Assembly (NCBI RefSeq): GCF_018408855.1
Contig: NZ_AP024323.1
Coordinates: forward strand, 1-64,000
Length of the DNA: 64,000 nucleotides
From: Caballeronia sp. NK8
Lineage (GTDB): Bacteria > Pseudomonadota > Gammaproteobacteria > Burkholderiales > Burkholderiaceae
Reading direction: 5' to 3'
Below are positions 45,181 to 60,080 of the stretch, piece after piece. How positions within the stretch are numbered: position 1 is the first letter of the stretch; each line of letters opens with the position of its first letter. The notes beneath the pieces were generated by a model, which did no database searches, was not told the origin of the DNA, and saw only the letters and a program-made list of their open reading frames with translations. A program made the position numbers and the translations under genes.

Positions 45181-45196
45181 CGGTTTTTTTGTTGGT

Positions 45197-45225
45197 GCCC
45201 CTGGCGAGATTGGTTCGCTGGGGGC
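45197..45225 (+). terminator. Hairpin terminator after fdhA
   Basis: The stem GCCCC/GGGGC with inner GCGA/TCGC and a 7-base loop starts 16 bp after the fdhA stop and is followed by a T-rich tract (CGCTTTCTTT). Confidence 0.6.
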
Positions 45226-45264
45226 GCTTTCTTTGCGCTTTCTTTGTGCTTTCTTTGCGCTTTC
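45224..45264. repeat. 11-bp tandem repeat next to repeat element A
   Basis: The unit GCGCTTTCTTT starts at 45224, 45235 and (as GTGCTTTCTTT) 45246, with a partial fourth unit at 45257. It abuts the left edge of the 612-bp element. Confidence 0.75.
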
Positions 45265-45876
45265 GCCGGATCCCGTGAGGGTGTTGGTTTATTAGCGTTG
45301 CCCCTGTGCGGGGCGGCAGTCACTTTCTTTGCTGCTGCAAAGAAAGTAACCAAAGAAAGCAGCTCGAGACGCCCGCGGTCACACGCAATTTGGGTGTTCT
45401 TCTCGTTGATCGTGGCCTCTGTAGCGAGTGCCCTCATAGGTCTAACCGGGCTTGGACCGCGCACGGTCTGACAAGCTAGTCGTTTGAGCCCGCTGGTTCA
45501 GCACGAAATAGCTTCGGCACAGCGCTACGCGCTGCCGTCGGGTATGCAAGGGAAACCAACGAGAAAAGAGAAACGCAGAAGCACACGCAGTCCCGATTGA
45601 CCCATCGGCCGCGAAGCGGGCCGGAGCCGTTTCGTGCTGAACCAGCGTGTTATGTGGTGCGATGTGACAGACCGTGCGCGGTCCAAGCCCGGTCTGGCCT
45701 ACGAGGGCACTCGCTACTGCTGTGCCAAGACCGATCGCCTGTGCCGGGGCCGGCATGAAGTACTTTGGATGGGGAAAGCTGTTTCTTTGGTTACTTTCTT
45801 TGCAGCAGCAAAGAAAGTGACTGCCGCCCCGCACAGGGGCAACGCCAACAGACCGACACGCTAACGGGATCCGGCG
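45264..45876. repeat. Dispersed 612-bp palindrome-armed repeat, copy A
   Basis: The 613-bp element is bounded by an imperfect inverted repeat, CGCCGGATCCCG at 45264 and CGGGATCCGGCG ending at 45876. Each arm carries the hairpin ACTTTCTTTGC-TGCT-GCAAAGAAAGT and the stem GCCCCTGTGCGGGGC. A central segment (about 45490-45650) is flanked by inverted CTGGTTCAGCACGAAA. Copy B at 58559 is the same element in reverse orientation. The right arm of A has an unrelated insert-like stretch near 45720-45775. Open frames inside it, which translate the hairpin as TFFAAAKKVTKES, look spurious. It fills the 717-bp gap between fdhA and the converging regulator gene. Confidence 0.88.
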
Positions 45877-45897
45877 GAACCAGACCCAACAAACCCC

Positions 45898-46896
45898 TCA
45901 AGCCACCAAAACCGAAGAAACAGCAGCCAAAGAAGGAGCCTGCTTCCGTCTCTCCCGCGTCGGCGCGGTCCCAAACGCATCGCGATAGCTCTTCGAAAAG
46001 TGACAAGCCGACTGAAACCCGCAAGCCATCGTGATATGCATGATCGACATATCGGTCTGCAGCAACAACTCCCGCGCGCGACGCAACCGCAACGTCAGGT
46101 AGTAATGCGTCGGCGTCATCCCGAGATGCTCGCGAAATAACCGCTGCAACTGCCTCTGCGACATCCCCGCGAGCCGCGCGAGCTCCTCCCGCGACAGAGG
46201 CTCCTCGATATTGTTCTCCATCAACGAGATGACCTCGAAGAGCGATTTGTTCGCCGACCCCAGCCGCGCGACGAGCGGCATGCGCTGCTGCGCATTCACA
46301 TCGCGCACATGTTCGACGATGAACTGCTCCGCGATCTGCGTAACCCGCGCCGTGCCGACGCGCGCCGCAATCAGATTGAGCATCATGTCGAGCGGCGCGA
46401 CGCCGCCCGTACACGTCACGCGATCGCGATCTATAACGAACAGCTCCTTGAGAAAGCGCGTGTCGGGAAACTCTTCCTTGAGCGCCGACATGTTCTCCCA
46501 GTGGATCGCGCACGCATAACCGGCCAGCAGACCCGCACGCGCCAACGCATAGGTGCCGGTGCAAAGCGAGCCAAGCACGCTGCCCGTACGCGCAAAACGG
46601 CGCAACGCGGAAAGATGCTCTGGCGTGGTCGAACGCTGCACGTCGATGCCGCCGACCACGAACACGATGTCGGGTTGCCCCACGCAATCCACCGGACCCG
46701 TATCGACGGAAAGGCCGTTGCTCGCCGTCACCGGTCCGCCCTCCGGACTCACGATCGACCATCGATAAAGCGGCTGCCCCGTCAGATAGTTCGCCATGCG
46801 CAGGACTTCGATCGCATTCGTGAACGCGATCATCGTGAAGTTGGGAAGCGGCATGAACGCGAAGTGGGACAGCGACGCCGTGCGATCGGAGGACAT
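45898..46896 (-). CDS. gbdR: GbdR-like AraC/GlxA-family regulator of betaine catabolism
   Basis: 332 residues. A DJ-1/PfpI-like domain (FMPLPNFTMIAFTNAIEVLR, GSLCTGTYALARAGLLAG) precedes an AraC DNA-binding domain (LSREELARLAGMSQRQLQRLF; IMHITMACGFQSACHFSKSYR). It resembles GbdR, which senses glycine betaine and dimethylglycine and activates gbc, dgc and sox genes in Pseudomonas. It is divergent from the gbc-dgc operon across a 437-bp gap, which supports the assignment over the paralogue at 24517. An in-frame ATG at 46938 is an alternative start. Confidence 0.85.
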   Translation of the reverse strand: MSSDRTASLSHFAFMPLPNFTMIAFTNAIEVLRMANYLTGQPLYRWSIVSPEGGPVTASNGLSVDTGPVDCVGQPDIVFVVGGIDVQRSTTPEHLSALRRFARTGSVLGSLCTGTYALARAGLLAGYACAIHWENMSALKEEFPDTRFLKELFVIDRDRVTCTGGVAPLDMMLNLIAARVGTARVTQIAEQFIVEHVRDVNAQQRMPLVARLGSANKSLFEVISLMENNIEEPLSREELARLAGMSQRQLQRLFREHLGMTPTHYYLTLRLRRARELLLQTDMSIMHITMACGFQSACHFSKSYRDAFGTAPTRERRKQAPSLAAVSSVLVA

Positions 46897-47333
46897 GTGA
46901 GAACTGATTCCTTGGAATCTATTGATTGGCGCCGTCATTTGCGGCGCTTTGCCACTGTCGCAATTTTGGTTTCGAGTGCAACTACCATGCCATCAGGCTA
47001 AACCCTGAGCAATGCGAGGCACCGTGCATGCTTCGCTGCGCGCGCGCACCGGGCCGGGCCATACGCCATAAGCCGCGCACTGCCATAGCGCACGATCGTT
47101 CCGATGCAGTGCAGCAGGACACACAAAAAAACGCGCTACACCGAATCGTAATTCGCCACTTGTCGAAAACAGACGCGCATGTCGGAAAAGGCAAAGAACA
47201 CGTCTAAATTCATAAATTGACCGGCAGGGCGAAAGACAAGAATAGACGCAACGGCAAAGGTATCGATCAGGCGCTGCAAAGCCCGTCAGACCTTCGTCTT
47301 TCCCCCACTTCCCGGCACGCGGAGCACACCCAG
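46897..47333 (+). promoter_or_regulatory. 437-bp regulatory gap upstream of the dipeptidase-dgc-gbc operon
   Basis: No gene is supported here. A TCAGG-N6-CCTGA hairpin lies at 46993-47008. Direct repeats TGTCGAAAAC (47161) and TGTCGGAAAA (47180), with a weaker GTCTAAATTC at 47202, lie 130-170 bp before the operon start. The 11-mer TGTCGGAAAAG recurs exactly upstream of the betaine-binding protein gene (57552). These are candidates for the GbdR-like activator. Confidence 0.45.
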
Positions 47334-48305
47334 ATGAGCACCCTCCACAACGACAGCATCATCATCGACGGACTGAATATTTCCAAGTTCGAGCGCTCCG
47401 TGTTCGAAGACATGCGAAAGGGCAATGTCACCGCCGTGAACTGCACCGTCTCGGTCTGGGAGGACTTTCAGAAGACCATCGACAACATCGCGGAAATGAA
47501 GCAGCAGATCCGCGAGTACAGCGAAATCCTCACGCTCGTGCGCACGACCGACGACATCCTGCGCGCGAAGAAGGAGAACAAGACCGGCATCATCTTCGGC
47601 TTCCAGAACTCGTATGCGTTCGAGGACAACCTCGGCTATATCGAAGTGTTCAAGGAACTCGGCGTGAACGTGGTGCAGCTTTGCTACAACACGCAGAACC
47701 TCGTCGGCACCGGTTGCTATGAGCCGGACGGCGGCCTGTCGGGTTACGGCAAGGAAGTGATTCATGAAATGAATCGCGTGGGCATCGTGGTCGATCTGTC
47801 GCACGTCGGCGCGAAGACCTCTTCCGATGCGATCGCCTGCTCGAAGAAGCCCGTCACGTACTCGCACTGCTGCCCGTCGGGGCTCAAGGATCATCCGCGC
47901 AACAAGACGGACGAGCAACTGCGCGAAATCGCCGATGCGAACGGCTTCGTCGGCGTGACGATGTTCTCGCCGTTCCTGAAGAAAGGCCCGGACGCGACGG
48001 TCGACGACTATCTCGAAGCGATCGAATACGTGATCGATGTAATCGGCGAAGACAAGGTCGGTATCGGCACCGACTTCACGCAAGGCTACAGCACCGAATT
48101 CTTCGACTGGATCACGCACGACAAGGGCCGCTATCGCCGCCTGACGAATTTCGGCAAGGTCGTGAATCCCGAAGGCATCCGCACGATCGGCGAGTTTCCG
48201 AACCTCACCGCCGCCATGGAAAAGGCCGGCTGGAGCGAATCGCGCATCAAGAAAGTGATGGGCGAGAACTGGATGCGCTACTTCGGCGAAGTCTGGAACG
48301 TCTGA
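47334..48305 (+). CDS. Membrane dipeptidase-family protein of the dgc operon (PA5396-like)
   Basis: 323 residues, renal dipeptidase family. The retained metal-site parts are VDLSHVGAKTSSDA, TYSHCCPSGLKDHPRNK and GIGTDFTQG. The usual first metal-binding motif DGHxD reads DGLNISKF, and the bridging Glu region reads FGFQNSYAF, so half of the two-zinc site appears lost. The orthologue sits in the same operon position in Pseudomonas (PA5396, from memory). Its reaction in betaine catabolism is unknown. Start at 47334 with GGAG 10 bases upstream. Confidence 0.85.
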   Translation: MSTLHNDSIIIDGLNISKFERSVFEDMRKGNVTAVNCTVSVWEDFQKTIDNIAEMKQQIREYSEILTLVRTTDDILRAKKENKTGIIFGFQNSYAFEDNLGYIEVFKELGVNVVQLCYNTQNLVGTGCYEPDGGLSGYGKEVIHEMNRVGIVVDLSHVGAKTSSDAIACSKKPVTYSHCCPSGLKDHPRNKTDEQLREIADANGFVGVTMFSPFLKKGPDATVDDYLEAIEYVIDVIGEDKVGIGTDFTQGYSTEFFDWITHDKGRYRRLTNFGKVVNPEGIRTIGEFPNLTAAMEKAGWSESRIKKVMGENWMRYFGEVWNV

Positions 48306-48336
48306 CGATCAACGACAAATACACAGGAACCCCGCG

Positions 48337-48870
48337 ATGCAACCGCAACTGCCTATCGATGTCGATCCGCAAACCGGCGTCTGGACCACCGACGCGCTGC
48401 CGATGCTCTACGTGCCGCGCCACTTCTTCACGAACAATCATGTCGCCGTCGAGGAAGCGCTCGGGCGCGACACGTATGCCGAGATTCTCTACAAGGCCGG
48501 CTACAAGTCCGCATATCACTGGTGCGACAAGGAAGCCGAGAAGCACGGCATCGCCGGCATGGCCGTGTTCGAGCATTACCTGAAGCGTCTGTCGCAACGC
48601 GGCTGGGGCCTGTTCGACATCGTCGAGGCCGATCCTTCGACTTCGCATGCGCGCATTCATCTGCGTCACTCGTCGTTCGTGCTTCAGCAGCCGGGCAAAG
48701 AGGGCAAGCTCTGCTACATGTTCGCGGGCTGGTTCGCAGGCGCGATGGACTGGGTCAACGACACCGCGTCCGACAGCGCAAGGAAAGGCCCGCGCTCGAA
48801 GTCGATCGAGACGCAGTGCGCCGCCGAAGGACACGATCACTGCGTGTTCGAAGTGTCGCCGCTTGCCTGA
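48337..48870 (+). CDS. V4R-domain (4-vinyl reductase-like) protein, PA5397-like
   Basis: 177 residues. The C-terminal half fits a V4R small-molecule-binding domain (MFAGWFAGAMDWVNDTA, ETQCAAEGHDHCVFEVSP with conserved Cys/His). The N-terminal half is DVDPQTGVWTTDALPMLYVP. A homologue lies between the dipeptidase-like gene and dgcA in Pseudomonas. Function is unknown; V4R domains bind hydrophobic ligands or metals in other proteins. It is 31 bp after the dipeptidase gene. Confidence 0.8.
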   Translation: MQPQLPIDVDPQTGVWTTDALPMLYVPRHFFTNNHVAVEEALGRDTYAEILYKAGYKSAYHWCDKEAEKHGIAGMAVFEHYLKRLSQRGWGLFDIVEADPSTSHARIHLRHSSFVLQQPGKEGKLCYMFAGWFAGAMDWVNDTASDSARKGPRSKSIETQCAAEGHDHCVFEVSPLA

Positions 48871-48935
48871 GAGAGCGCCGGAGACAGCGCTGCAGCAAAG
48901 TAGTCGCAGATAAAACCATCCCGAGGTCGATCGCA

Positions 48936-50999
48936 ATGCGTTACCCGAACCTTTTCAAGCCTCTCCAGCTGAACAAGCTCACGTTGCGCAACCGCATCGT
49001 CAGCACCGCGCACGCGGAGGTCTATGCCGAACCGGGCGGCCTGCCCGGCGACCGCTATATCCGTTACTACGAGGAGAAGGCGAAGGGCGGCGTCGGCCTC
49101 GCCGTGTGCGGCGGTTCGAGTCCCGTTTCGATCGACAGCCCGCAAGGCTGGTGGAAATCGGTGAATCTCGCGACCGACAAGGTCATCGACCCGCTGTCGC
49201 GTCTCGCCGAAGCGATGCATCGTCATGGCGCGTTCATCATGATCCAGGCGACGCACATGGGCCGCCGTTCCGCATGGCACGGCGAGCACTGGCCGCATCT
49301 GATGTCGCCTTCGGGCGTGCGCGAACCGGTGCATCGTGGCAACGCGAAGATCATCGAAGTGGAAGAGATCAAGCGCATCATCCAGGACTTCGCCGCAGCC
49401 GCGAAGCGCGTGAAGGATGCTGGCATGGACGGCATCGAGATTTCCGCCGCGCATCAACATCTGATCGATCAGTTCTGGAGCCCGCGCACCAACTTCCGCA
49501 CGGACGAATGGGGCGGCTCGCTCGAGAACCGTCTGCGCTTCGGTACGGAAGTGCTGAAGGCCGTGCGCGAAGCCGTGGGCGCGGATTTCTGCGTCGGCCT
49601 GCGCATGTGCGGCGATGAGTTCCATGAAGACGGCCTCTCTCACGAGAACCTGAAGGAGATCGCGCAGGCGATGTCCGAAAGCGGCCTCATCGATTACGTC
49701 GGCGTGATCGGTTCGGGCGCGGATACCCACAACACGCTCGCCAACTGCATGCCGCCGATGGCGCTGCCGCCCGAGCCGTTCGTGCATCTCGCGGCGGGCA
49801 TCAAGTCGGTCGTGAAGCTGCCGATCATGCATGCGCAGAGCATTCGCGACGCAGGCCAGGCCGAGCGCCTGCTCGCCAACGGCATGGTCGATCTCGTCGG
49901 CATGACGCGCGCGCAGATCGCCGATCCGCACATGGTCATCAAGATCCGCGATGGCCGCGAGGATGAAATCAAGCAGTGCGTCGGCGCGAACTATTGCATC
50001 GACCGTCAGTACAACGGCCTCGATGTGCTGTGCGTGCAGAACGCAGCGACCTCGCGTGAAGAGACGATGCCGCATGTCATCGAAAGGACGCGCGGGCCGA
50101 AGCGCAAGGTCGTGGTGGTCGGCGCGGGGCCCGCGGGTCTCGAAGCGGCGCGCGTCGCGCGGTCGCGCGGCCATGATGTCGTGCTGTTCGAGAAGAACGA
50201 GTATGTCGGCGGTCAGATCATGCTCGCCGCGAAAGCGCCGCAGCGCGAACAGATGGCCGGCATCGTGCGCTGGTTCGACATGGAAACGAAGCGCCTGGGC
50301 GTCGATCGCCGTCTCGGTGTCGCGGCCGACGACAAGATGATCATGGCGGAGAAGCCGGACATCGTCGTGCTCGCGACGGGCGGCTCGTCGTTCACGAATC
50401 AGGTGCCTGCATGGGGCGTGGAGCAAGGTCTTGCAGTGAGTTCATGGGACATTCTCTCGGGCAAGGTCGAGCCGGGCAAGAACGTGCTCGTGTATGACGG
50501 TGTGAGCACGCATGCGGGCGCGGGCGTCGCGGACTTCATCGCGTCGCGCGGCAGCAATGTCGAGATCGTCACGCCGGATGTGAAGGTCGCCGACGACACC
50601 GGCGGCACCACGTTCCCGATTTTCTATCGCCGGCTCTATGCGCAAGGCGTGATCCACACGCCGAACTACTGGCTCGACAAGGTGTACGAGGAAGACGGCA
50701 AGAAGATCGCCGTGATCCGCAACGAATACACGGAAGAGCAGGAAGAGCGCGCGGTGGATCAGGTCATCATCGAGAACGGCATCACGCCGAACGACGCGCT
50801 CTACTGGAAGCTCAAGCCCGAGTCGCTCAATCGCGGGCAGATCGACGTGCACACGCTCTTCGCGTCGCAACCGCAGCCGTCGCTTAGTGAAGAGCTCGGC
50901 AACGGACGCTTCCTGCTGTTCCGCGTCGGCGACTGTATCTCGATGCACAACATCCACAGCGCGATCTACGATTCGCTGCGCCTCTGCAAAGACTTCTGA
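48936..50999 (+). CDS. dgcA: Dimethylglycine demethylation protein DgcA
   Basis: 687 residues, NADH:flavin oxidoreductase/trimethylamine dehydrogenase-like. An N-terminal FMN-binding TIM barrel (LFKPLQLNKLTLRNRIVST, GIEISAAHQHLIDQFWSPRT) is followed by an iron-sulfur loop and a C-terminal FAD/NAD-type region (VVVVGAGPAGLEAARVARSR). The cluster loop has Cys348, Cys354 and Cys366 but an Ala where a fourth Cys is usual. With DgcB it converts dimethylglycine to sarcosine. It is 15 bp before dgcB. Confidence 0.92.
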   Translation: MRYPNLFKPLQLNKLTLRNRIVSTAHAEVYAEPGGLPGDRYIRYYEEKAKGGVGLAVCGGSSPVSIDSPQGWWKSVNLATDKVIDPLSRLAEAMHRHGAFIMIQATHMGRRSAWHGEHWPHLMSPSGVREPVHRGNAKIIEVEEIKRIIQDFAAAAKRVKDAGMDGIEISAAHQHLIDQFWSPRTNFRTDEWGGSLENRLRFGTEVLKAVREAVGADFCVGLRMCGDEFHEDGLSHENLKEIAQAMSESGLIDYVGVIGSGADTHNTLANCMPPMALPPEPFVHLAAGIKSVVKLPIMHAQSIRDAGQAERLLANGMVDLVGMTRAQIADPHMVIKIRDGREDEIKQCVGANYCIDRQYNGLDVLCVQNAATSREETMPHVIERTRGPKRKVVVVGAGPAGLEAARVARSRGHDVVLFEKNEYVGGQIMLAAKAPQREQMAGIVRWFDMETKRLGVDRRLGVAADDKMIMAEKPDIVVLATGGSSFTNQVPAWGVEQGLAVSSWDILSGKVEPGKNVLVYDGVSTHAGAGVADFIASRGSNVEIVTPDVKVADDTGGTTFPIFYRRLYAQGVIHTPNYWLDKVYEEDGKKIAVIRNEYTEEQEERAVDQVIIENGITPNDALYWKLKPESLNRGQIDVHTLFASQPQPSLSEELGNGRFLLFRVGDCISMHNIHSAIYDSLRLCKDF

Positions 51000-51014
51000 C
51001 GAGGGTATTGGACG

Positions 51015-52925
51015 ATGAACCCCGTGTTTGTCATCACCGCTTTGCTGTGGCTTTCGATGGCGGGCCTCGCGTTCGCCCTGCTCAAGCGCGCGGCTTACTG
51101 GCGCGAAGGCCGCGCGACGACAGCCGGCGCGTACGGATGGGCGAATCTGCTGACCATCCCCAAGCGCTATTTCGTCGATCTGCATCATGTCGTGGCGCGC
51201 GATCCGTATATCGCGAAGACGCACGTCGCGACCGCCGGCGGCGCGATCCTCGCGATGGCGCTCGTCTTCATCAACTACGGTCTCGCGATCTACTCGGTCT
51301 GGCTCGACCGCGCGATCTTCCTCGCGGCCATCATCATGCTGGTCGGCGCGGTGTTCGTGTACCGGCGTCGCCGTGCGAAAGATGTCCCCGCGCGTTTGTC
51401 GCGCGGACCGTGGGACAGTCTGCCGCTGTTGCTCGGATCGTTCGCCGTCGGTCTCGCGCTGTTCATGCTGTTGCCCGCTTCGTGGATGTCGGGATCGCTC
51501 GCGATCATCGTCGCGTTGCTGATCGCGGCGGGCGCCTACACCATGACCTTCGGCGCGGCGCAAGGCGGCCCGATGAAGCACGCGATGGCGGGTCTCCTGC
51601 ATCTCGCGTTCCATCCGCGCCAGGAGCGTTTCAGGGCGAAGACCGAGCACGAAGTGGTCCCGCCGACCGCGCTGAAAAAGCCCGTGCTCGATGCGAAGGA
51701 ATACGGCGTCGGCAAGCCGGTGGAGTTTCGCTGGAACCAGTTGCTGAGCTTCGATGCCTGCGTGCAATGCGGCAAGTGCGAGGCCGCGTGCCCCGCGTTC
51801 GCATCGGGTCAGCCGCTCAATCCGAAGAAGCTGATTCAGGATCTGGTCGTCGGCATGGTCGGCGGTTCCGACTCGCAATACGCGGGCAGCCCGACGCCCG
51901 GCATTCCGGTCGGCAAGCATTCGGGCGGTCCGGCGAAGCCGCTCATCTCGCAGATGATCGAAGCCGACACGATCTGGTCATGCACCACATGCCGCGCGTG
52001 CGTGCAGGAGTGCCCGATGCTGATCGAGCACGTCGATGCGATCGTCGACATGCGCCGCAATCAGACGTTGGTCGAAGGAGACGTGCCGGGCAAAGGTCCG
52101 ATCACGCTCGCGAATCTGCGCGAGACGGGCAGTCAGAACGGCTACGACATCGGCGCGCGTTACGACTGGTCGGTGGATTTGCAAGTGCAGGTCGCGCAAC
52201 CGGGCCGTCCTGTCGACGTGCTGCTGATCGCCGGCGAAGGCGCGTTCGACATGCGCTATCAGCGCACGCTGCGCGCGTTGGCGAAGGTGCTGAACAAGGC
52301 AGGCGTCGATTACGCGGTGCTCGGCGGCGTCGAAACCGATACCGGCGACACAGCCCGGCGTCTCGGCGACGAAGCCACGTTCCAGCAATGCGCGTCGAAG
52401 CTGATGAACACGCTGTCGCAGTATCAGTTCCGCCGCATCGTCACGGCCGATCCGCATGTGCTGCACAGCCTGCGCAATGAATATCGCGCGCTCGGCGGCT
52501 ATTACGAAGTGCAGCATCACACCGCGTTCATGGCCGAGCTCGTCGCCAACGGCAAGCTGACGCCGAAGGCCGCCGCCGTGCTCGCCGACAAAAAGATCAC
52601 GTATCACGATCCGTGCTATCTCGGCCGCTACAACGGCGAAACGGAAGCGCCGCGCAAGCTGCTGAAGACCATCGGCATCAAGGTCGTCGAGATGGAACGT
52701 CATGGCATGCGCGCACGCTGCTGCGGCGGCGGCGGCGGCGCGCCGCTGACCGATATCCCCGGCAAGCAGCGCATTCCCGATATCCGCATCGCCGATGCGA
52801 AGTCGGTCGGCGCGGACGTGGTCGCGGTCGGTTGCCCGCAATGCACCGCGATGCTGGAAGGCGTGGTCGGCTCGCGTCCCGAAGTGCTCGACGTGGCGGA
52901 ACTCGTCGCCGCAGCGCTGGAGTAA
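51015..52925 (+). CDS. dgcB: Dimethylglycine demethylation protein DgcB (membrane iron-sulfur protein)
   Basis: 636 residues. An N-terminal membrane part with about four to five helices (FVITALLWLSMAGLAFALL, GAILAMALVFINYGLAIYSV) precedes two [4Fe-4S] motifs (CVQCGKCEAACPAFASG; CTTCRACVQECPMLIEHVD) and a C-terminal cysteine-rich (CCG) domain (DPCYLGRYNGE, RCCGGGGGAP). It probably passes electrons from DgcA or the ETF to the quinone pool. It is 5 bp before the ETF alpha gene. Confidence 0.92.
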   Translation: MNPVFVITALLWLSMAGLAFALLKRAAYWREGRATTAGAYGWANLLTIPKRYFVDLHHVVARDPYIAKTHVATAGGAILAMALVFINYGLAIYSVWLDRAIFLAAIIMLVGAVFVYRRRRAKDVPARLSRGPWDSLPLLLGSFAVGLALFMLLPASWMSGSLAIIVALLIAAGAYTMTFGAAQGGPMKHAMAGLLHLAFHPRQERFRAKTEHEVVPPTALKKPVLDAKEYGVGKPVEFRWNQLLSFDACVQCGKCEAACPAFASGQPLNPKKLIQDLVVGMVGGSDSQYAGSPTPGIPVGKHSGGPAKPLISQMIEADTIWSCTTCRACVQECPMLIEHVDAIVDMRRNQTLVEGDVPGKGPITLANLRETGSQNGYDIGARYDWSVDLQVQVAQPGRPVDVLLIAGEGAFDMRYQRTLRALAKVLNKAGVDYAVLGGVETDTGDTARRLGDEATFQQCASKLMNTLSQYQFRRIVTADPHVLHSLRNEYRALGGYYEVQHHTAFMAELVANGKLTPKAAAVLADKKITYHDPCYLGRYNGETEAPRKLLKTIGIKVVEMERHGMRARCCGGGGGAPLTDIPGKQRIPDIRIADAKSVGADVVAVGCPQCTAMLEGVVGSRPEVLDVAELVAAALE

Positions 52926-52930
52926 AGGCA

Positions 52931-54091
52931 ATGAACGACATCAAACGAATCGATCCGCGCCGGCCTTTCATTGTCACGGCGGCGGGGCTCAAGCGCATCA
53001 CGCTCGGTGAAGTCGGCAATGGCGTCGTGCTGGACTTCGCGCATGGCGGTCACAAGGAAGCGGTGAAGCCGCATCGCACGATGAAGCCCGCCACGCGCGC
53101 GCTGCTCGTCGCGGCGCATACGGATCGCGGCGCGCTCGACGATCACGCGCGCCAGGCGCTCGCCGCCGCCGCGCTGCTCGCGGATGACGCCACCGAAGTC
53201 GTGCTGATCGCGTTCGGCGAGTTCAAGGACGATGCCGCGGCGCTGGGCGCGGATCGTTATATCGAACTGCCCGCGTTCGACCGGCGCAATTACGCGCCCG
53301 ACGAAGAAGTGCGCGCGCTGACGGCATGCGTCGCGGCATTCACGCCCTCGCACGTCTTCATGCCCGACAACGCAACGGGCGATGGCGATCTCGGCCGCCG
53401 CTACGCCGCGCGCGCGGACGCATCGATTGCGACGCAGGTCGTCGAACTCGATGCCGCGCACGTCGCATCGTATGCGCAGGCGGGCCGCGCGCTCGCGTCG
53501 CGCGCCTTGCCCGATGTGATTCTGCTCGCCGCCAACGCGGTCGATGCGAAGCTGCCGTTCGTCGGCGCGGGCGAGGCGGTGAATCCGGACGGCATCGTGC
53601 CGGCATCGAAAGCCAGTGCTTACGTTGATCTCGGCATCGAGGAAATGGACGCCGCGCAGGTCGCGCTGGAAGAGGCGGATTTCATCGTGTCGGCGGGCAA
53701 CGGCGTGTCCGATGTCGCCGCGTTCGAGGCGCTGGCGGGCACGCTGGGCGCGGCGATCGGGGCGAGCCGCGTCGCTGTCGACGATGGCAAGTTCACGCGC
53801 GACAAGCAGATCGGCGCGACCGGCAAGACGGTCGAGGCGAGCGTGTATATCGCGTTCGGCATTTCGGGCGCCGTGCAGCACTTGCAGGGCATCAAGGATT
53901 GCCGTCACGTGATCGCCGTGAATCTCGACGCCAGCGCGCCGATTGCCAAACGCGCGAATCTCACGATCGTCGCGGACACGCAGGAAACCATCAAGGCGCT
54001 GTCCGACGCCGCCGCCGCCGCGCGCGCCGCGCGGGCCAGCGGTGCTTCGATCGTGCAGACCGCGCACGTTGCCGAGGGAGTCGCAGCATGA
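52931..54091 (+). CDS. Electron transfer flavoprotein alpha-like subunit of the dgc system
   Basis: 386 residues. The C-terminal FAD-binding region is recognisable (IGASRVAVDDGKFTRDKQIG, GKTVEASVYIAFGISGAVQH, IKDCRHVIAVNLDASAPI). This matches the ETF alpha signature, in Pseudomonas PA5400. A 40-residue N-terminal extension precedes the ETF domain. It likely accepts electrons from DgcA or a related dehydrogenase and delivers them through DgcB. Its end overlaps the beta gene (ATGA). Confidence 0.87.
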   Translation: MNDIKRIDPRRPFIVTAAGLKRITLGEVGNGVVLDFAHGGHKEAVKPHRTMKPATRALLVAAHTDRGALDDHARQALAAAALLADDATEVVLIAFGEFKDDAAALGADRYIELPAFDRRNYAPDEEVRALTACVAAFTPSHVFMPDNATGDGDLGRRYAARADASIATQVVELDAAHVASYAQAGRALASRALPDVILLAANAVDAKLPFVGAGEAVNPDGIVPASKASAYVDLGIEEMDAAQVALEEADFIVSAGNGVSDVAAFEALAGTLGAAIGASRVAVDDGKFTRDKQIGATGKTVEASVYIAFGISGAVQHLQGIKDCRHVIAVNLDASAPIAKRANLTIVADTQETIKALSDAAAAARAARASGASIVQTAHVAEGVAA

Positions 54092-54846
54092 AGATCGCCG
54101 TTCTGGTTTCCACCGGCCGCCATCCCGTCAGCGGCACGGCGCGTTACAGCCGCAACGATGCGGCCGCCTTGACGATCGCCATCGGCATCGCCAGGACGCA
54201 CCACGCGCAACTCGACGTGTTGCATGCGGGCGATCCGGGAAATCCCGCACTCGCGGAATATCTCGCGCTCGGCGCGCCGAAAGTCGAAGTGCTGAACACG
54301 CAAGGCGATGCGTGCGCGGCTCTTGGCGCAAGGCTCGCGGGTTACGACCTCGTGTTCACCGGCACGCGCGCCGAAGGCGCGTTCGACAGCGGCACGCTGC
54401 CCTACAAGCTCGCCGATGCGCTGAACGTGCCGCTCGTCGGCGCGGCCGTCGATGTAAGCGTGACGAAGGACAGCGTGGAAGTGCGTCAGTTCATGCCGAA
54501 AGGCTTGCGCCGCCGCGTGCGCGCGCCGCTGCCCGCGCTCGTCGCCGTGCATCCGCTCGCCAACGCCGCGCCGCGCTACGCGTATGCGCGCATGCGTGAA
54601 GGCCACGTCACGCCGGTTGCGGCGAGCGCGCCTGTCGAGAAGGAAAACACCGCCTGGAGCATCGGCCCGGTCACGGCCAAGCCGAAGAAACTGGCCGCGC
54701 CCGAGAAGCGCTCGGGCCACGCGCGCATGCTCGGCGCGACGACGACCGAAAGCCGCGGCGGCAGCGTCGTAATTGAAGGGAGTTCCGTCGAAAAAGCACA
54801 AGTGATTCTGGCGTATTTGCGCGAGCATCAACTCGTCGATTACTAG
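54088..54846 (+). CDS. Electron transfer flavoprotein beta-like subunit of the dgc system
   Basis: 252 residues. The nucleotide-binding ETF beta fold begins MKIAVLVSTGRHPVSGTARY, with FTGTRAEGAFDSGTLPYKLA and VEVRQFMPKGLRRRVRAPLP near the subunit interface. It pairs with the overlapping alpha gene and is dedicated to the dimethylglycine pathway by context. Confidence 0.87.
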   Translation: MKIAVLVSTGRHPVSGTARYSRNDAAALTIAIGIARTHHAQLDVLHAGDPGNPALAEYLALGAPKVEVLNTQGDACAALGARLAGYDLVFTGTRAEGAFDSGTLPYKLADALNVPLVGAAVDVSVTKDSVEVRQFMPKGLRRRVRAPLPALVAVHPLANAAPRYAYARMREGHVTPVAASAPVEKENTAWSIGPVTAKPKKLAAPEKRSGHARMLGATTTESRGGSVVIEGSSVEKAQVILAYLREHQLVDY

Positions 54847-54941
54847 GTTTCGACGCAAGCCCGGTCCCACATACGAAAGCAGCAGCCCGCGTTCAAAGGT
54901 GTTTGGCGGGGCACCAGACGTGACGCAAAACGGAGCACACG

Positions 54942-56240
54942 ATGAAAGTTTCGGCAGACGTTCGCGCAATGATCGAACGCCGCAAAAAGGGCCATACGCT
55001 CGAGGCGCCGTTCTATACGAGCCCGGAGATCCACGCGCTCGACCTCGATGCCATCTTCCGCAAGACCTGGATTCAGGTCGCCATCGAACCGGACATTCCC
55101 GAACCGGGCGATTACACGACGGTCGAGATCGGCAACGATTCGATCCTGATCGTGCGCGACGACGACATGGAAATCCGCGCCTTCTACAACGTGTGCCGCC
55201 ATCGCGGCGCGCGCCTGTGCAATCAGGAGAAGGGCTCGCTCGGCAATATCGTGTGCCCGTATCACAGCTGGACGTACAACCTCTCCGGCGACCTGATGTT
55301 CGCCGAGCACATGGGCGACCAGTTCGACCGCTGCAAGCACAGCCTGAAGAAAGTGCACGTGCAGAATCTCGCGGGCCTGATTTTCATCTGCCTCGCCGAT
55401 GAACCGCCCGCCGATTTCGCCGTGATGCGCGAAGCGATGGAACCGTATCTCGCGCCGCATGGCCTGAGGGACTGCAAGATCGCGGCGAGCATCGATATCG
55501 TCGAGAAGGGCAACTGGAAGCTCACGATGGAGAACAATCGCGAGTGCTATCACTGCGTCGCGAATCATCCCGAACTGACCATTTCGCTCTATGAATACGG
55601 CTTCGGCTATCAGCGTTCGCCTGCCAACGAGGAAGGCATGGCCGCGTTCGAGCAGACCGTCGCCGAGCGCACGAAGCAATGGGAAGCGATGTCCCTGCCG
55701 TCCGCCGAAATCGAACGTCTGTCCGATCTCGTCACGGGCTTTCGCACGCAGCGCCTGCCGCTCGATCGCGACGGCGAATCGCAGACACTCGACGCCAGGG
55801 TCGCATCGAAGAAGCTGCTCGGCGGCTTCGAGCGCGCGGACCTGGGCGGCCTCTCGTTCTGGACGCAGCCGAATTCGTGGCATCACTTCATGAGCGATCA
55901 CATCGTGACGTTCTGCGTGATTCCGCTTGCGTCGGGCGAAACGCTCGTGCGCACGAAATGGCTGGTGCACAAGGATGCGCGCGAGGGTATCGATTATGAC
56001 GTCGACAACCTCACCGCCGTGTGGCGCGCGACGAACGATCAGGACCGCACGCTCGTCGAGTATTCGCAGCTCGGCGTCGCGAGCAACGCGTACGAGCCGG
56101 GTCCGTATTCGCCGTTCACGGAAGGGCTCGTCGAGAAGTTCTGCGAGTGGTACATCGGGCGTCTTGCCGATCATGCGAACGCGCCCGAGCACGGCGTGGA
56201 TGCATCGCACGGCGAGAAAGTCGTTTCCTTCATGCGCTAA
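54942..56240 (+). CDS. gbcA: Glycine betaine monooxygenase, Rieske oxygenase subunit
   Basis: 432 residues. The Rieske [2Fe-2S] ligands are Cys85-x-His87 (CRHRGARLC) and Cys105-x2-His108 (CPYHSW). The mononuclear iron site includes His204 and His209 in NRECYHCVANHPEL. It demethylates glycine betaine to dimethylglycine and formaldehyde with O2, using GbcB for electrons. It follows the ETF genes after 95 bp and precedes gbcB by 33 bp. Confidence 0.94.
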   Translation: MKVSADVRAMIERRKKGHTLEAPFYTSPEIHALDLDAIFRKTWIQVAIEPDIPEPGDYTTVEIGNDSILIVRDDDMEIRAFYNVCRHRGARLCNQEKGSLGNIVCPYHSWTYNLSGDLMFAEHMGDQFDRCKHSLKKVHVQNLAGLIFICLADEPPADFAVMREAMEPYLAPHGLRDCKIAASIDIVEKGNWKLTMENNRECYHCVANHPELTISLYEYGFGYQRSPANEEGMAAFEQTVAERTKQWEAMSLPSAEIERLSDLVTGFRTQRLPLDRDGESQTLDARVASKKLLGGFERADLGGLSFWTQPNSWHHFMSDHIVTFCVIPLASGETLVRTKWLVHKDAREGIDYDVDNLTAVWRATNDQDRTLVEYSQLGVASNAYEPGPYSPFTEGLVEKFCEWYIGRLADHANAPEHGVDASHGEKVVSFMR

Positions 56241-56273
56241 GCGCGTTCGAACAGCAGCGAGCAGGAGCAGAAC

Positions 56274-57503
56274 ATGATGCGCGATCAGGCTACGTTCGAG
56301 CCGACCCAAAGCCGTGTCACCCAGCCGAAATTCTGGGGGACGCTGCCCGTGCGCTGGGATTGCGATACGGACGAGACGCTCGTCTGCTGTCACGTCCGGC
56401 AGGAAACGCATGACGTCAAAAGCTTTTTCTTCAAGGCGCCCGGCGAACGCACGTTTGTCTTCGAGCCGGGGCAGTTCATCACGCTCGAACTCGATATCGA
56501 CGGCGAGCAGATCAATCGTTGCTACACGATCTCGTCCGCGCCGACGCGGCCGCACACGATCTCCATCACGGTGAAGCGCGTGCCGGGCGGCAAGGTGTCG
56601 AACTGGCTGCACGACAACGTCGTGGCGGGAACGACCGTGCGCGTGCTCGGGCCGTCGGGCGAATTCACGTGCGCGCGTCATCCGGCGCGCAAGTTCCTGT
56701 TTCTATCGGCGGGCTCGGGCATCACGCCGCTCATGTCGATGAGCCGCGCGCATCACGAGCTTGTCGACGATGCGGACATCATGTTCGTGCATAGCGCGCG
56801 CACGCCGGACGACATCATCTTCGCGCGCGAACTCGATCTGATCGCGTCGAACCAGAAGAACTTCCGCACTGCGTTCGTCTGCGAACGCGTGGGCGCGCGC
56901 ACGAACTGGCCGGGCGTGACGGGCTTTCTGAGCCTGCCGTTGCTGAAGCTGATCGCGCCGGACTTTCTCGAACGCGAGATCTTCACGTGCGGCCCCGCGC
57001 CGTACATGAAGGCGGTGCGCGATCTGCTCGACGAAGGGGGTTTCGATCGCAAGCATTATCACGAGGAGAGCTTTTCGTTCGGCGTCGTCGAAGAGGTCGC
57101 GGCGGTATTGACGACCGCGCATGTCGGCGATGCGCTCGCGGCGCAGACGGATTTCGTCGAAGCGCGTGAAGAAGCGGTCGGTTTCGAGCCTGCTCCCGCA
57201 GAGCCGGTCATCGAGCCGGTTGCGGAACCGTTGATCGAAACGAAGTTCAAGGTCAACTTTGCGAAGAGCCGGCGCGATATCGAATGCGGCGGCCACGAAC
57301 ACGTGCTCGATGCCGCGAAGAAAGCGGGCGTGCGTTTGCCTTCGTCGTGCACGCAGGGCATGTGCGGCACCTGCAAAGTGAAGCTCGTGTCCGGCGAAGT
57401 GAGCATGAAACATGCGGGGGGAATTCGTCAGCGCGAGATCGATCAGGGCATGGTGCTGTTGTGCTGCAGCAAGCCGTTGACGGATCTCGTCGTCGACAAG
57501 TGA
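56274..57503 (+). CDS. gbcB: Glycine betaine monooxygenase, reductase subunit
   Basis: 409 residues. A ferredoxin-NADP reductase-like FAD domain (INRCYTISSAPTRPHTISIT) precedes an NAD domain (LFLSAGSGITPLMSMSRAHH, EIFTCGPAPYMKAV) and a C-terminal plant-type [2Fe-2S] domain with CTQGMCGTCKVKLVSG and LLCCSKP. A Pro/Glu-rich linker of about 30 residues (near 300-325) separates them. It supplies electrons to GbcA. AGGAG precedes the start. Confidence 0.93.
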   Translation: MMRDQATFEPTQSRVTQPKFWGTLPVRWDCDTDETLVCCHVRQETHDVKSFFFKAPGERTFVFEPGQFITLELDIDGEQINRCYTISSAPTRPHTISITVKRVPGGKVSNWLHDNVVAGTTVRVLGPSGEFTCARHPARKFLFLSAGSGITPLMSMSRAHHELVDDADIMFVHSARTPDDIIFARELDLIASNQKNFRTAFVCERVGARTNWPGVTGFLSLPLLKLIAPDFLEREIFTCGPAPYMKAVRDLLDEGGFDRKHYHEESFSFGVVEEVAAVLTTAHVGDALAAQTDFVEAREEAVGFEPAPAEPVIEPVAEPLIETKFKVNFAKSRRDIECGGHEHVLDAAKKAGVRLPSSCTQGMCGTCKVKLVSGEVSMKHAGGIRQREIDQGMVLLCCSKPLTDLVVDK

Positions 57504-57531
57504 GGTGCCCGGGCGACCCTGATCGGGGTGC

Positions 57532-57562
57532 GTCGTTTCTTGACAACTGAGTGTCGGAAAAG
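57532..57562 (+). promoter_or_regulatory. Direct-repeat and -35-like sequence before the betaine-binding protein gene
   Basis: GTCGTTTCTT (57532) and GTCGGAAAAG (57553) start 21 bp apart, with a perfect TTGACA (57540-57545) between them. No good -10 follows, which fits an activator-dependent promoter. TGTCGGAAAAG also occurs at 47180 upstream of the dgc operon. Confidence 0.4.
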
Positions 57563-57631
57563 TGCGTTACGGGCCAATTCTGGCTAGTGATTCTGTTCGC
57601 TACACGGCGTGGGCCGCTAAGGGGAAACCAA

Positions 57632-58486
57632 ATGAAACCGATGAGAAGAATGCTCGTGCTCGGGGCGATGACCGCCGCGCTGGCTGCGAGTTTTGGGGCG
57701 AACGCCGCAGACAAGCCGACCATCAAAATCGGTTACGTCGAGGGCTGGGACGATAGCGTCGCGACGTCGAACGTGGCTGCGCGCATCATCGAGAAGAAGC
57801 TGGGGTATCCGGTGCAGCTCGTGCCGGTTGCGGCGGGCGTGATGTGGCAGGGCGTTGCGCGCGGCGATCTGGACGCGACCTTGTCCGCGTGGCTGCCGGT
57901 GACGCATGGCGCGTACTGGAACAACTTCAAGGCGAAGGTCGTGAATCTCGGCCCGAACTTTCAGGATGCGAAGATCGGTTTGATCGTGCCTGAGAATGTC
58001 GACGTCAATAGTCTTTCGGATCTCGAAGCGAAGAAGGCGGAATTCGATTCGCGCATCGTCGGGATCGATGCTGGCGCGGGTGTGATGCAGAAGACCAGCG
58101 AGGCGATCAAGGCCTACAATCTCGACTACAAGCTGCTGCCGAGCTCGGGTAGCGCGATGACGGCGGAACTGGCGCGCTCGGAAGCGGCTAAGAAGCCGAT
58201 CATCGTGACGGGCTGGAAGCCGCACTGGATGTTCGCGAAGTACAAGCTGAAATTCCTGGAAGATCCGAAGAAGGTGTTCGGTGAATCCGAGCACGTGGAT
58301 AACGTGATCAATCCGGAACTGGAGAAGAAGGCGCCGCAGGTTGTGGCGTTTCTGAAGAAGTTTCAGTGGAAACCGGGTGAGATCGATAGCGTGATGCTGG
58401 CCACGCAGAACGGAGAGAAGCCGCAGGCGGCTGCCGATGCGTGGATCGGCGCGCATGGGGATCGGGTGGATTCCTGGGTTAAGTAA
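57632..58486 (+). CDS. Quaternary-amine (glycine betaine/carnitine-type) ABC binding protein
   Basis: 284 residues, OpuAC/ProX fold, distinct from the ChoX-like proteins. It has a signal peptide with cleavage after NAA near residue 24. Pocket aromatic residues are in GYVEGWDDSVATSN, LDATLSAWLPVTHGAYW and VTGWKPHWMF. It lacks a nearby ATPase or permease, so it probably delivers to the ChoVW core at 22.4 kb, as CaiX and BetX do in Pseudomonas. AAGGGG lies 7 bases before the start. It follows gbcB. Confidence 0.87.
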   Translation: MKPMRRMLVLGAMTAALAASFGANAADKPTIKIGYVEGWDDSVATSNVAARIIEKKLGYPVQLVPVAAGVMWQGVARGDLDATLSAWLPVTHGAYWNNFKAKVVNLGPNFQDAKIGLIVPENVDVNSLSDLEAKKAEFDSRIVGIDAGAGVMQKTSEAIKAYNLDYKLLPSSGSAMTAELARSEAAKKPIIVTGWKPHWMFAKYKLKFLEDPKKVFGESEHVDNVINPELEKKAPQVVAFLKKFQWKPGEIDSVMLATQNGEKPQAAADAWIGAHGDRVDSWVK

Positions 58487-58514
58487 AGGGTTCTTTTGCG
58501 TTTGGGCAAACGCT

Positions 58515-58551
58515 AAGCGTCGTGAGGGGGCTCCTTGCGGCGCTTTTTTTT
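58515..58551 (+). terminator. Rho-independent terminator after the betaine-binding protein gene
   Basis: The stem AAGCGTCG/CGGCGCTT (one G-U pair) extends through GAGG/CCTT with a short loop and is followed by eight Ts. It lies 28 bp after the stop codon and just before repeat element B. Confidence 0.85.
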
Positions 58552-58558
58552 GGTTTGT

Positions 58559-59169
58559 CGCTGGATCCCGTTGTCGCGTCGGTTTATTAGCGTTGCCCCT
58601 GTGCGGGGCGGCAGTCACTTTCTTTGCTGCTGCAAAGAAAGTAACCAAAGAAAGCAGCTTGAGCCGCCCGCGGTCACACGCAATTTGGGCATTCTTCTCC
58701 TCGCTCGTGGCGTCTGTAGCGAGTGCCCTCGTAGGCCTAACCGGGCTTGGACCGCGCACGGTCTGTCACACCGCGCCGCTCGCGTGGCTGGTTCAGCACG
58801 AAATGGCTCCGTCCCGCTGCGCGGCCGACCGGTCCATCGGGACTGCGTGTGCTTCTGCGTTTCTCTTTTCTCGTTGGTTTCCCTCGCCTACCCGACGGCA
58901 GCGCGAAGCGCTGTGCCGAAGCTATTTCGTGCTGAACCAGTGCGCTTAAGCAACTAGCTAGTCAGACCGTGCGCGGTCCAAGCCCGAGGTGGCCTACGAG
59001 GGCACTCGCTACGGAGGCCACGAACAACGAGAAGAACACCCAAATTGCGTGTGACCGCGGGCGTCTCGAGCTGCTTTCTTTGCCTACTTTCTTTGCAGCA
59101 GCAAAGAAAGTAGGTGCCGCCCCGCACAGGGGCAACGTTAATAGACCGACACGAAACCGGGATCCGGCG
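58559..59169. repeat. Dispersed 612-bp palindrome-armed repeat, copy B (inverted)
   Basis: The 611-bp element is bounded by CGCTGGATCCCG (58559) and CGGGATCCGGCG (ending 59169). Its left arm matches the right arm of copy A (GGTCTGTCACA junction), its right arm matches the left arm of A (GTCTGACTAGCTAG versus GTCTGACAAGCTAG), and its centre is the reverse complement of A's centre. Thus B is A reversed as a whole. It fills most of the 718-bp gap between the betaine-binding protein gene and converging purU; no gene is supported inside. Confidence 0.88.
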
Positions 59170-59204
59170 ACAAACCCAAGCGAAAGCAAAAAAACCAAAA
59201 ACCC

Positions 59205-60080
59205 TCAACCCAAAACCACAGTCCGCTCACCATTAATAAAAACCCGCCGCTCGATAAAAGCCTTCACAGCCCGCGCCAGCGTAATGCATTCGACATCACG
59301 CCCGGTGGCAAGCAGCCTCTCAGGCCCATAAGAATGGTCGACCCGCTCGACCTCCTGCTCGATGATTGGCCCTTCATCGAGATCATCGGTAACGAAATGC
59401 GCCGTCGCGCCAATGAGCTTGACGCCCCGCGTATGCGCCTGATGATAAGGCTTCGCCCCCTTGAACCCCGGCAGGAACGAATGATGAATATTGATTGCCC
59501 GCCCGGCGAGCGCGCGGCTCGTCTCTCCCGAAAGAATCTGCATATAACGCGCAAGCACCATCAATTCAGCGCCTGAAGTCTCGAACAGATCGAGCAAACG
59601 CGCCTCCTGCTGAGGCTTGGTATCCGCGGTAATCGGAAGATGATGAAACGGCAGGCCATGCTGCGCAGCCAGGTGCGCCAGGTCCGTATGATTCGACCCG
59701 ATCCCGACGATATCCATCTTCAACTCGCCCATGCGCCAGCGGAACAACAGATCGGCGAGACAATGCTCCAGCTTCGATACCATGATGAGCACTTTCGGCC
59801 GCACGGCGAGATCGTGCATCGCCCATGACATCGAGAAGCGCCCGGCGATCGGCTCGAATTCGCGCTTCAGCATCGCGAGATCGAGCGCCTCTTCAGGCCG
59901 CGCGCCATGAAAGACGCAGCGCACGAAGAAGCGTTCGCTCAAATCGTCGTCGAACACGGTGAGTTCGTCGATATAGCCGTGATGCCGCTCCAGAAAGCCG
60001 ACGATGGCGGCGACCTGCCCCGCCGCGCTCGGGCACGAGACGGTAAGCACCAGTTGATCAAAGCGGGATTCGGCTGCCAT
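59205..60080 (-). CDS. purU: Formyltetrahydrofolate deformylase
   Basis: 291 residues. An N-terminal ACT domain (LVLTVSCPSAAGQVAAIVGF) precedes a formyltransferase-like catalytic domain with INIHHSFLPGFKGAKPYHQA and THGHFV-like ATAHFVTDDLDEGPII. It hydrolyses 10-formyl-tetrahydrofolate to formate and tetrahydrofolate, recycling folate loaded with methyl carbon from sarcosine oxidation. Such copies often lie beside betaine catabolism genes. Start is MAAESRFDQL. Confidence 0.93.
   Translation of the reverse strand: MAAESRFDQLVLTVSCPSAAGQVAAIVGFLERHHGYIDELTVFDDDLSERFFVRCVFHGARPEEALDLAMLKREFEPIAGRFSMSWAMHDLAVRPKVLIMVSKLEHCLADLLFRWRMGELKMDIVGIGSNHTDLAHLAAQHGLPFHHLPITADTKPQQEARLLDLFETSGAELMVLARYMQILSGETSRALAGRAINIHHSFLPGFKGAKPYHQAHTRGVKLIGATAHFVTDDLDEGPIIEQEVERVDHSYGPERLLATGRDVECITLARAVKAFIERRVFINGERTVVLG

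Follow-up and report, generated by a model that had tools for sequence, protein, structure and literature searches.

In this work, we describe a family of long foldback repeats, two copies of which, A and B, lie in opposite orientation within the first 64,000 positions (1-64,000, hereafter the window) of contig NZ_AP024323.1 of Caballeronia sp. NK8, whose genome of 9.2 Mb comprises 7 contigs. The element is quasi-palindromic, about 610 bp long, and folds back on itself nearly end to end. That it represents a real, widespread, non-coding foldback family, undergoing concerted evolution, is well supported. In the explanation we prefer, to which we assign a probability of about 70%, A and B belong to a non-coding family of long foldbacks located downstream of genes, the sites being inherited and the interiors overwritten by short-tract gene conversion. 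Sharing of sites between genomes, homogenisation of interiors and decay of linkage within copies are best read as concerted evolution of this kind.

Copy number and genomic siting

The arm core, a short conserved motif found once in each arm, occurs 112 times in the NK8 genome (54 and 58 instances on the two strands, allowing up to 2 mismatches), while the reversed pattern, used as a control, was never found. The genome holds roughly 60 copies and relatives are found in two genera, in line with the multi-copy nature implied by the earlier note. Sixty places were fetched with about 3 kb on each side, corresponding to at least 59 distinct copies; a few more exist in the genome, for example at C4:1593485. 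Forty-eight of these places are 500-700 bp long, 9 are interrupted and 2 are remnants (L078 and L098). One copy, split by an island, was counted twice, its main part (L092) being among the 48 and its other end (L093) standing alone.

Gene neighbourhoods were derived with a home-made gene finder based on codon usage, and a few of the convergent calls involve genes 300-1000 bp away. By this analysis 28 of the 60 places fall within convergent spacers, 30 within codirectional ones and one, doubtful, within a divergent one (L072), the last having received no assignment. Spacers of more than 40 bp without the element number 109 in these loci, with 5 convergent and 37 divergent ones: convergent spacers are enriched at element sites (28 of 59, against 5 of 109 in this background, p = 5e-22, and against 8 of 52 for spacers of the window, p = 7e-9), and divergent ones are nearly absent (1 of 59). 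A stop codon faces the element within 100 bp in 58 of the 60 places, median distances being 27 nt on the stop side and 128 nt on the start side, and the flanks are T-rich on both sides of the element. The siting rule is a position just after a stop codon; 3' ends are strongly favoured, without restriction to convergent spacers. The location between convergent gene ends, described by the earlier note, holds for A and B, but not as a rule throughout the genome. Similarly, A and B do bracket the gbc-dgc region, but this is not special, because contig C2 carries 25 of the fetched copies and short gaps are frequent, 9 of the 24 between neighbours being 13.3 kb or shorter, against 4.8 expected if copies were uniformly distributed.

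Shared sites and homogenised sequences

Copies were fetched with their flanks from five relatives (16 from G322, 18 from G287, 12 from G221, 8 from G124 and 7 from G244, the last a genome of 5 contigs). Sites matching by one flank were left out of the sharing counts, and copies outside 540-700 bp were left out of the identity tests. Both flanks matched one of the 60 NK8 places for 13 of 16, 5 of 18, 6 of 12, 4 of 8 and 6 of 7 copies, respectively, and 22 of the 60 places are common to at least one of the five relatives. Flanks shared with G322 are 94-98% identical over about 1.5 kb, those of G244 copies at NK8 sites 77-93%. Orientation is kept at 28 of the 33 ortholog-site pairs.

With some exceptions, discussed below, copies within one genome are more alike than copies found at the same site in two genomes. 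Element identity over the 33 ortholog-site pairs ranges from 0.735 to 0.936, while the best paralog within the same genome reaches 0.85-0.97; mean identity is 0.854-0.899 within genomes and 0.729-0.829 between them. The 11 same-site pairs of NK8 and G322 average 0.81, and all pairs between these two genomes 0.807. The same pattern is seen in G244, with 0.874 within the genome and 0.813 to 12 NK8 copies. In a tree of 69 copies, those of NK8 form two clades, and those of the relatives group mostly by genome, not by site.

Probable exchange between copies

Linkage was evaluated at 68 gap-free biallelic sites of 48 NK8 copies, gapped or multi-allelic columns being dropped. The r2 value falls from 0.60 at less than 5 bp to 0.03 at more than 60 bp (Spearman -0.33, permuted minimum -0.13), and the same trend is found in G287 and G322, where baselines lie at about 0.04-0.11. 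Such decay, a signature of recombination inside the copies, would not arise from a clonal tree lacking exchange.

Arm pairing is 0.770 within a copy and 0.781 between copies, and mirror positions of the two arms show little linkage (r2 of 0.042 versus 0.023). Self pairing is thus not above cross pairing, indicating that exchange takes place between copies and that the fold is not maintained copy by copy. Correction of one arm by the other within a copy, as a cause of homogenisation, was rejected on the pairing values; selection on an RNA with compensatory arm changes was rejected on both pairing and mirror linkage, so that the folded RNA suggested by the earlier note, in the form of a structure with compensating arms, finds no support.

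A signature of site identity is retained at the edges, clearly against G322 only. Orthologs of NK8 and G322 show an excess of identity of +0.15 to +0.38 outside the element and +0.21 in its outermost 6 bp, which drops to +0.09 and +0.10 over the next 12 bp and to +0.01 to +0.05 further in: with respect to the closest relative, site identity is clearly kept by the outer 18 bp or so only. End types are concordant in 53 of 61 end pairs, all species included, against a mean of 41.6 and a maximum of 51 in 2000 random draws. Trimmed alignments show little edge effect, probably because variant ends are cut off there.

According to the proposed mechanism, many insertion points would be inherited vertically, while interiors would be overwritten by short-tract gene conversion between dispersed copies, the family thus evolving in concert in each genome; gene conversion, rather than repeated insertion, would be the process at work. 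The palindrome may stall or break the replication fork, and RecA-type repair or template switching may then result in exchange. The family could have spread earlier through a mobile step, and its location after stop codons might result from a T-rich target, together with its elimination from operons and promoters. Engineered, interrupted palindromes of 460-480 bp studied in E. coli, similar in size to our element, offer a model of how exchange could occur: one of 480 bp folds into a hairpin at the replication fork, and processing of the hairpin leads to breaks which are repaired by recombination (PMC4245961). The repeats described here differ in being natural, with imperfect arms, a wide centre and dozens of copies, in a host without SbcD above cut-off.

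More tentatively, these palindromes may be regarded as a freely recombining "population" within a clonal genome, in which folding and breaking start conversion tracts of tens of bp, and the family repairs itself at inherited sites without transposing. We consider this extension possible, at odds well below even; if true, it would represent a conversion-driven maintenance of repeats in bacteria, distinct from the transposase-driven REPIN populations.

Several points weigh against short-tract gene conversion as the explanation. Exchange between copies was not directly observed, and clustered mutation could contribute to linkage at the shortest range. In 9 of the 33 pairs, at least one of the two orthologs has the other as its best cross-genome match, and in 2 this is reciprocal, the reciprocal pairs being L054/L192 (0.936), which looks like an unconverted pair, and L206/L243. 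The edge test, anchored on the arm core and measured without gaps, rests mainly on 23 end pairs with G322; the ortholog excess is small in the other species, a small positive excess (+0.05 to +0.06) is also found inside the element, at 60-110 bp from the core, and in trimmed alignments the inner bin 556-578 reads 0.976 versus 0.871. In the 11 NK8-G322 pairs, identity over the nearest 40 bp of flank varies from 0.55 to 1.0, only 6 of 22 ends being at 0.9 or above; an identical junction is clear at L054, L060 and L085, but cannot be judged at L047 and L068, where re-insertion may have occurred. Furthermore, the assemblies of G322, G287, G221 and G124 are drafts, with 50-170 contigs each, and may contain misassembled repeats of 600 bp, and the copies of the relatives are top hits of BLAST or pattern lists, not a random sample, yielding non-independent pairs. 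Finally, no SbcD, part of the best known palindrome nuclease, was found above cut-off in the NK8 genome, which leaves the break-making step without a named enzyme.

The scarcity of SbcD is also the basis of a different proposal, namely that palindromes are tolerated, and the family persists, where the SbcCD hairpin nuclease is lacking. SbcD is found above cut-off in 17 of 58 genomes of the same genus and in 9 of 68 of the genus of G384, being missing from most. The family (at least 6 arm cores) occurs in 2 of the 17 Caballeronia genomes with SbcD and in 20 of the 41 without it (Fisher p = 0.009, a value which ignores phylogeny). However, G256 and G332 carry both SbcD and the family, G347 has SbcD along with a probable diverged subfamily, and in the second genus 3 of the 4 SbcD-bearing genomes with counts carry arm cores (G225, G335 and G213, not G177). 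Absence of SbcCD as a strict requirement was rejected because of these exceptions in both genera; even as a looser condition, it would explain permission, but neither siting nor exchange, and as an account of the family we find it improbable.

Coding potential

The element is predicted to be non-coding, as judged from its sequence, and the frames it contains to be incidental, in agreement with the earlier note. With respect to copy A, 48 NK8 copies of 540-700 bp display 66 gaps of length 1, 4 of length 2 and 39 of length 3; their longest stop-free stretch varies between 82 and 199 aa, with a mean of 131, against 111 for shuffled sequences. A family of protein-coding or structured RNA genes could be imagined on account of the open frames, up to 199 aa, and of the strong fold, but it is highly improbable: gap lengths are not multiples of three, stops are variable, and no Rfam family was matched in the window at the gathering threshold.

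Distribution among relatives and element-free sites

The arm core is present in 87 of 398 Burkholderiaceae genomes, belonging to 6 of 25 genera, and is numerous in only two of these. Many Caballeronia genomes are devoid of it; counts in this genus go from 0 to about 110 per strand, and reach 189 in the second one, probably Paraburkholderia, as suggested by the matching named plasmid records (8 from Paraburkholderia, 3 from Caballeronia). A copy in Paraburkholderia largidicola has the same architecture, with a strong foldback between convergent genes. No match was found in phage records searched with copy B. Two genomes of the same genus, G347 and G179, have no arm core, yet contain 52 and 25 matches to copy A (E <= 1e-20), probably representing a diverged subfamily.

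To follow the sites of A and B, 80 named loci surrounding the dgc gene were compared, the best of which, with 99% protein identity, is from C. megalochromosomata. Of the 61 loci readable at site B, 7 contain element sequence (an 84-bp remnant in one case), and of the 46 readable at site A, 4 contain the element. Spacers without the element are at most 400 bp long in 39 of 54 loci at site B and in 36 of 42 at site A, the remainder measuring 0.5-3.9 kb: the empty sites envisaged in the earlier note do exist, for both copies. In the two loci filled at both sites (L116 and L119), as in all 39 loci readable at both, gene order and direction are the same as in the window. The role as recombination substrate suggested by the earlier note finds support in a form not named there, exchange between copies, and not as an inversion of the stretch from A to B.

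A hairpin resembling a terminator precedes the element at site B in C. fortuita, C. turbans and the window, the element beginning at its T tract or a few bases past it; C. hypogeia possesses such a hairpin and lacks the element. Some side observations were made at these loci. The C. hypogeia site (L118) shows a possible excision scar. In Caballeronia sp. INDeC2 (L114), site B contains a collapsed mini-element, in which two ends are joined at a GCCCC/GGGGC hairpin, and which may be a deletion product or an assembly artefact. Three of the four filled site-A loci (L115, L116 and L119) feature an extra frame in the spacer, acetyltransferase-like by eye.

The location after stop codons and the near absence from divergent spacers would also be expected of a functional 3'-end element, namely a bidirectional terminator, an insulator or a transcript-protecting foldback RNA under selection, conversion being a side effect. 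The occurrence of 6 of the 7 G244 copies at NK8 sites, with flank identities of 77-93%, points in the same direction, as does the strong RNA fold of copy A, the only one folded (-419.5 kcal/mol against a mean of -236.5 for 20 shuffles, z = -21). Yet both window copies come after a terminator-like hairpin, C. hypogeia has the hairpin without the element, per-copy arm compensation is lacking, mirror linkage is slight, and the arm core is absent from many congeners; a functional element of this type appears rather unlikely.

Possible mobility

We also considered an active or recent non-autonomous mobile element, either similar to a miniature inverted-repeat transposable element (MITE) or moved in trans by a REP-associated tyrosine transposase (RAYT): repeated insertion would occur at preferred T-rich sites following stop codons, and recent spread would explain the likeness of copies within a genome. 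Long terminal inverted repeats, patchiness among genomes, occurrence of sites A and B in both filled and element-free form, nesting of copies within older ones, at their apex or hairpin, T-richness of both flanks and divergence of the nearest flanks at some shared sites all fit this possibility. A candidate enzyme is present as well: 57 of 58 genomes of the genus encode a single-copy Y1_Tnp protein (PF01797, mostly 31-36 bits with a Pfam cut-off of 23, in frames of 237-326 aa), which in NK8 is RAYT-like (235 aa, single copy, C1 ~2659689-2659979, L272), its nearest model being NF047646, REP-associated tyrosine transposase, with 61.9 bits, below the cut-off of 80.

This protein is a candidate for the original spread of the family, but its presence does not track it, since the gene is found in genomes with and without the family; no arm core was detected in the 3.3-kb locus around it, that is, within about 1.1 kb of the gene. 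Target-site duplications, expected under the transposon hypothesis of the earlier note, were absent from 45 copies, no offset or length scoring above shuffled partners. RAYT-type movement would leave no target duplication. End types and, in most pairs, orientation are kept by site, and linkage decay inside copies is not expected from transposition alone. As the source of the present pattern, we regard continuing mobility as unlikely. An autonomous form endowed with its own gene was rejected, since each of the nine interrupted copies that resembled one, about 1.8-2.0 kb long, is an element into which about 1.24-1.38 kb of other DNA has been inserted.

Relation to known repeats

ERIC/IRU and RU sequences of enterobacteria are imperfect palindromes located in intergenic regions, as is the element described here, which is several times longer and found in other taxa. 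RU-1 to RU-3 measure 103-168 bp (PMC2759123). REP/BIME and REPIN sequences are likewise high-copy, extragenic, palindromic and non-coding, but REP units are 20-40 bp long (PMC3733652) and the P. fluorescens doublets 71 and 110 bp (PMC3116915), against about 610 bp here. Compensatory arm changes, common in REPINs (PMC3116915), were not seen in our arm-pairing test. As to the link of REPs with RAYTs, the single RAYT-like protein of NK8 does not follow the family. REPs are known targets of insertion sequences (PMC1525189), and our element shares with them the property of being a preferred one.

MITEs resemble the element in being non-coding, multi-copy and intergenic, with long terminal inverted repeats, and differ from it by the target duplication, missing here. 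No transposase with matching ends turned up, although no genome-wide search for end-matched transposases was made.

Gene conversion was reportedly raised as a mode of REP evolution already in a paper of 1988, and as an idea for bacterial repeats it is not new. Among the matches listed in literature searches on palindromic repeats of Burkholderia and Caballeronia, and on concerted evolution of palindromes or bacterial intergenic repeats, which covered partial texts outside subscription journals, the element is undescribed. Within the same literature, no 610-bp palindrome family was encountered that combines inheritance of sites with homogenised interiors and a measured decay of linkage.

Bacterial chromosomes are generally expected to lose long palindromes. 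Here dozens of them persist, many at inherited sites, with tracts of tens of bp apparently swapped across contigs, providing a natural bacterial system for measuring ectopic gene conversion, the stability of palindromes and the part played by SbcCD. From a practical point of view, copies of the element may cause errors when genomes of both genera are assembled from short reads, when strains are compared and when genes are called.

Architecture of the window copies

The two inverted copies of about 612 bp reported in the earlier note were recovered at their positions (Table 1), each with the matching ends, arm hairpin and long arms ascribed to it. B is indeed A reversed: by BLAST, over all 613 positions, the two are 85% identical in inverted and 74% in direct orientation. 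Both contain the hairpin ACTTTCTTTGC-TGCT-GCAAAGAAAGT. Copy A has outer arms of 98 bp (93%) and inner arms of 53 and 28 bp, copy B arms of 217 bp (88%). The consensus element end is TT(T/G)TCGCCGGATCCCGT...CGTGTCGGTCTATTAGCGTTGCCCCTGTGCGGGGCGGCAGTCACTTTCTTTGCTGCTGCA; a second end type (GGAATCCTGA or GGATGGCCTG) is in the minority, with 31 of 196 typed ends, 7 being undecided.

Table 1. Coordinates of the two copies, their parts and their neighbours in the window
Feature	Position	Strand	Remarks
Copy A, foldback element, A-type clade among NK8 copies	45264..45876	+	
Copy B, same element inverted, B-type clade	58559..59169	-	85% over 613 positions, minus strand; tree
Left outer arm of A	45261..45358	.	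pairs with 45782-45879
Right outer arm of A	45782..45879	.	
Left arm of B	58549..58765	.	pairs with 58963-59179
Right arm of B	58963..59179	.	
Arm core GCCCCTGTGCGGGGCGGCA, left arm of A	45300..45318	+	mirrored at 45822-45840
Arm core, right arm of A	45822..45840	-	
Arm core, left arm of B	58595..58613	+	mirrored at 59115-59133
Arm core, right arm of B	59115..59133	-	
Arm hairpin CTTTCTTTGC-TGCT-GCAAAGAAAG, left arm of A	45319..45350	.	
Arm hairpin, right arm of A	45790..45821	.	
Arm hairpin, left arm of B	58614..58645	.	
Arm hairpin, right arm of B	59083..59114	.	
Terminator-like hairpin of upstream gene, before copy A, outside the element	45194..45228	+	3 found in region, shuffles mean 1.4
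Terminator-like hairpin with T tract of upstream gene, directly before copy B, outside the element	58515..58545	+	2 found, shuffles mean 1.6
Flanking gene, formaldehyde dehydrogenase, glutathione-independent (TIGR02819)	43984..45180	+	
Flanking gene, GbdR-like regulator	45898..46896	-	model score below curated cut-off
Flanking gene, choline-type substrate-binding protein	57650..58486	+	model score below curated cut-off
Flanking gene, PurU, formyltetrahydrofolate deformylase	59205..60080	-	

Insertions into element copies

IS481-type insertions and a 15.5-kb island have landed in arm hairpins, which are thus docking sites shared by insertion sequences and an integrase island. In five of the nine interrupted copies (L050, L055, L061, L066 and L072) the insert occupies the hairpin loop of an arm, with CTGCTG/CAGCAG on its two sides. 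Pfam typing assigned the L050 insert (L031) to the IS481 type, and the other four loop inserts align to it at 64-99.5%: over 1320 bp, identity is 99.5% for the pairs L050/L066 and L061/L066, the remaining inserts being 64-76% identical to L050. Those of L056 and L089, not typed, are in or beside the hairpin, and two IS30-like inserts, in L070 (typed by Pfam) and L074 (by alignment), are found near the arm base. At two of these sites, L061 and L070, G322 has a copy without insert. The 15.5-kb island lies in the arm hairpin of a tenth copy (C4:312820-328939), which it splits, with a 16-bp direct repeat, CTTTGCAGCAGCAAAG, at both ends; the genes of the island (L250, C4:312700-329100) include one for a tyrosine integrase (PF13356, PF00589) and those of a type I restriction-modification system, for restriction and methylase functions.

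Nested arrangements were also noticed: a full element lies in the centre of a shorter palindrome at L253 and another within the hairpin of an older end at L251, while L257 features a tandem repeat including flanking sequence.

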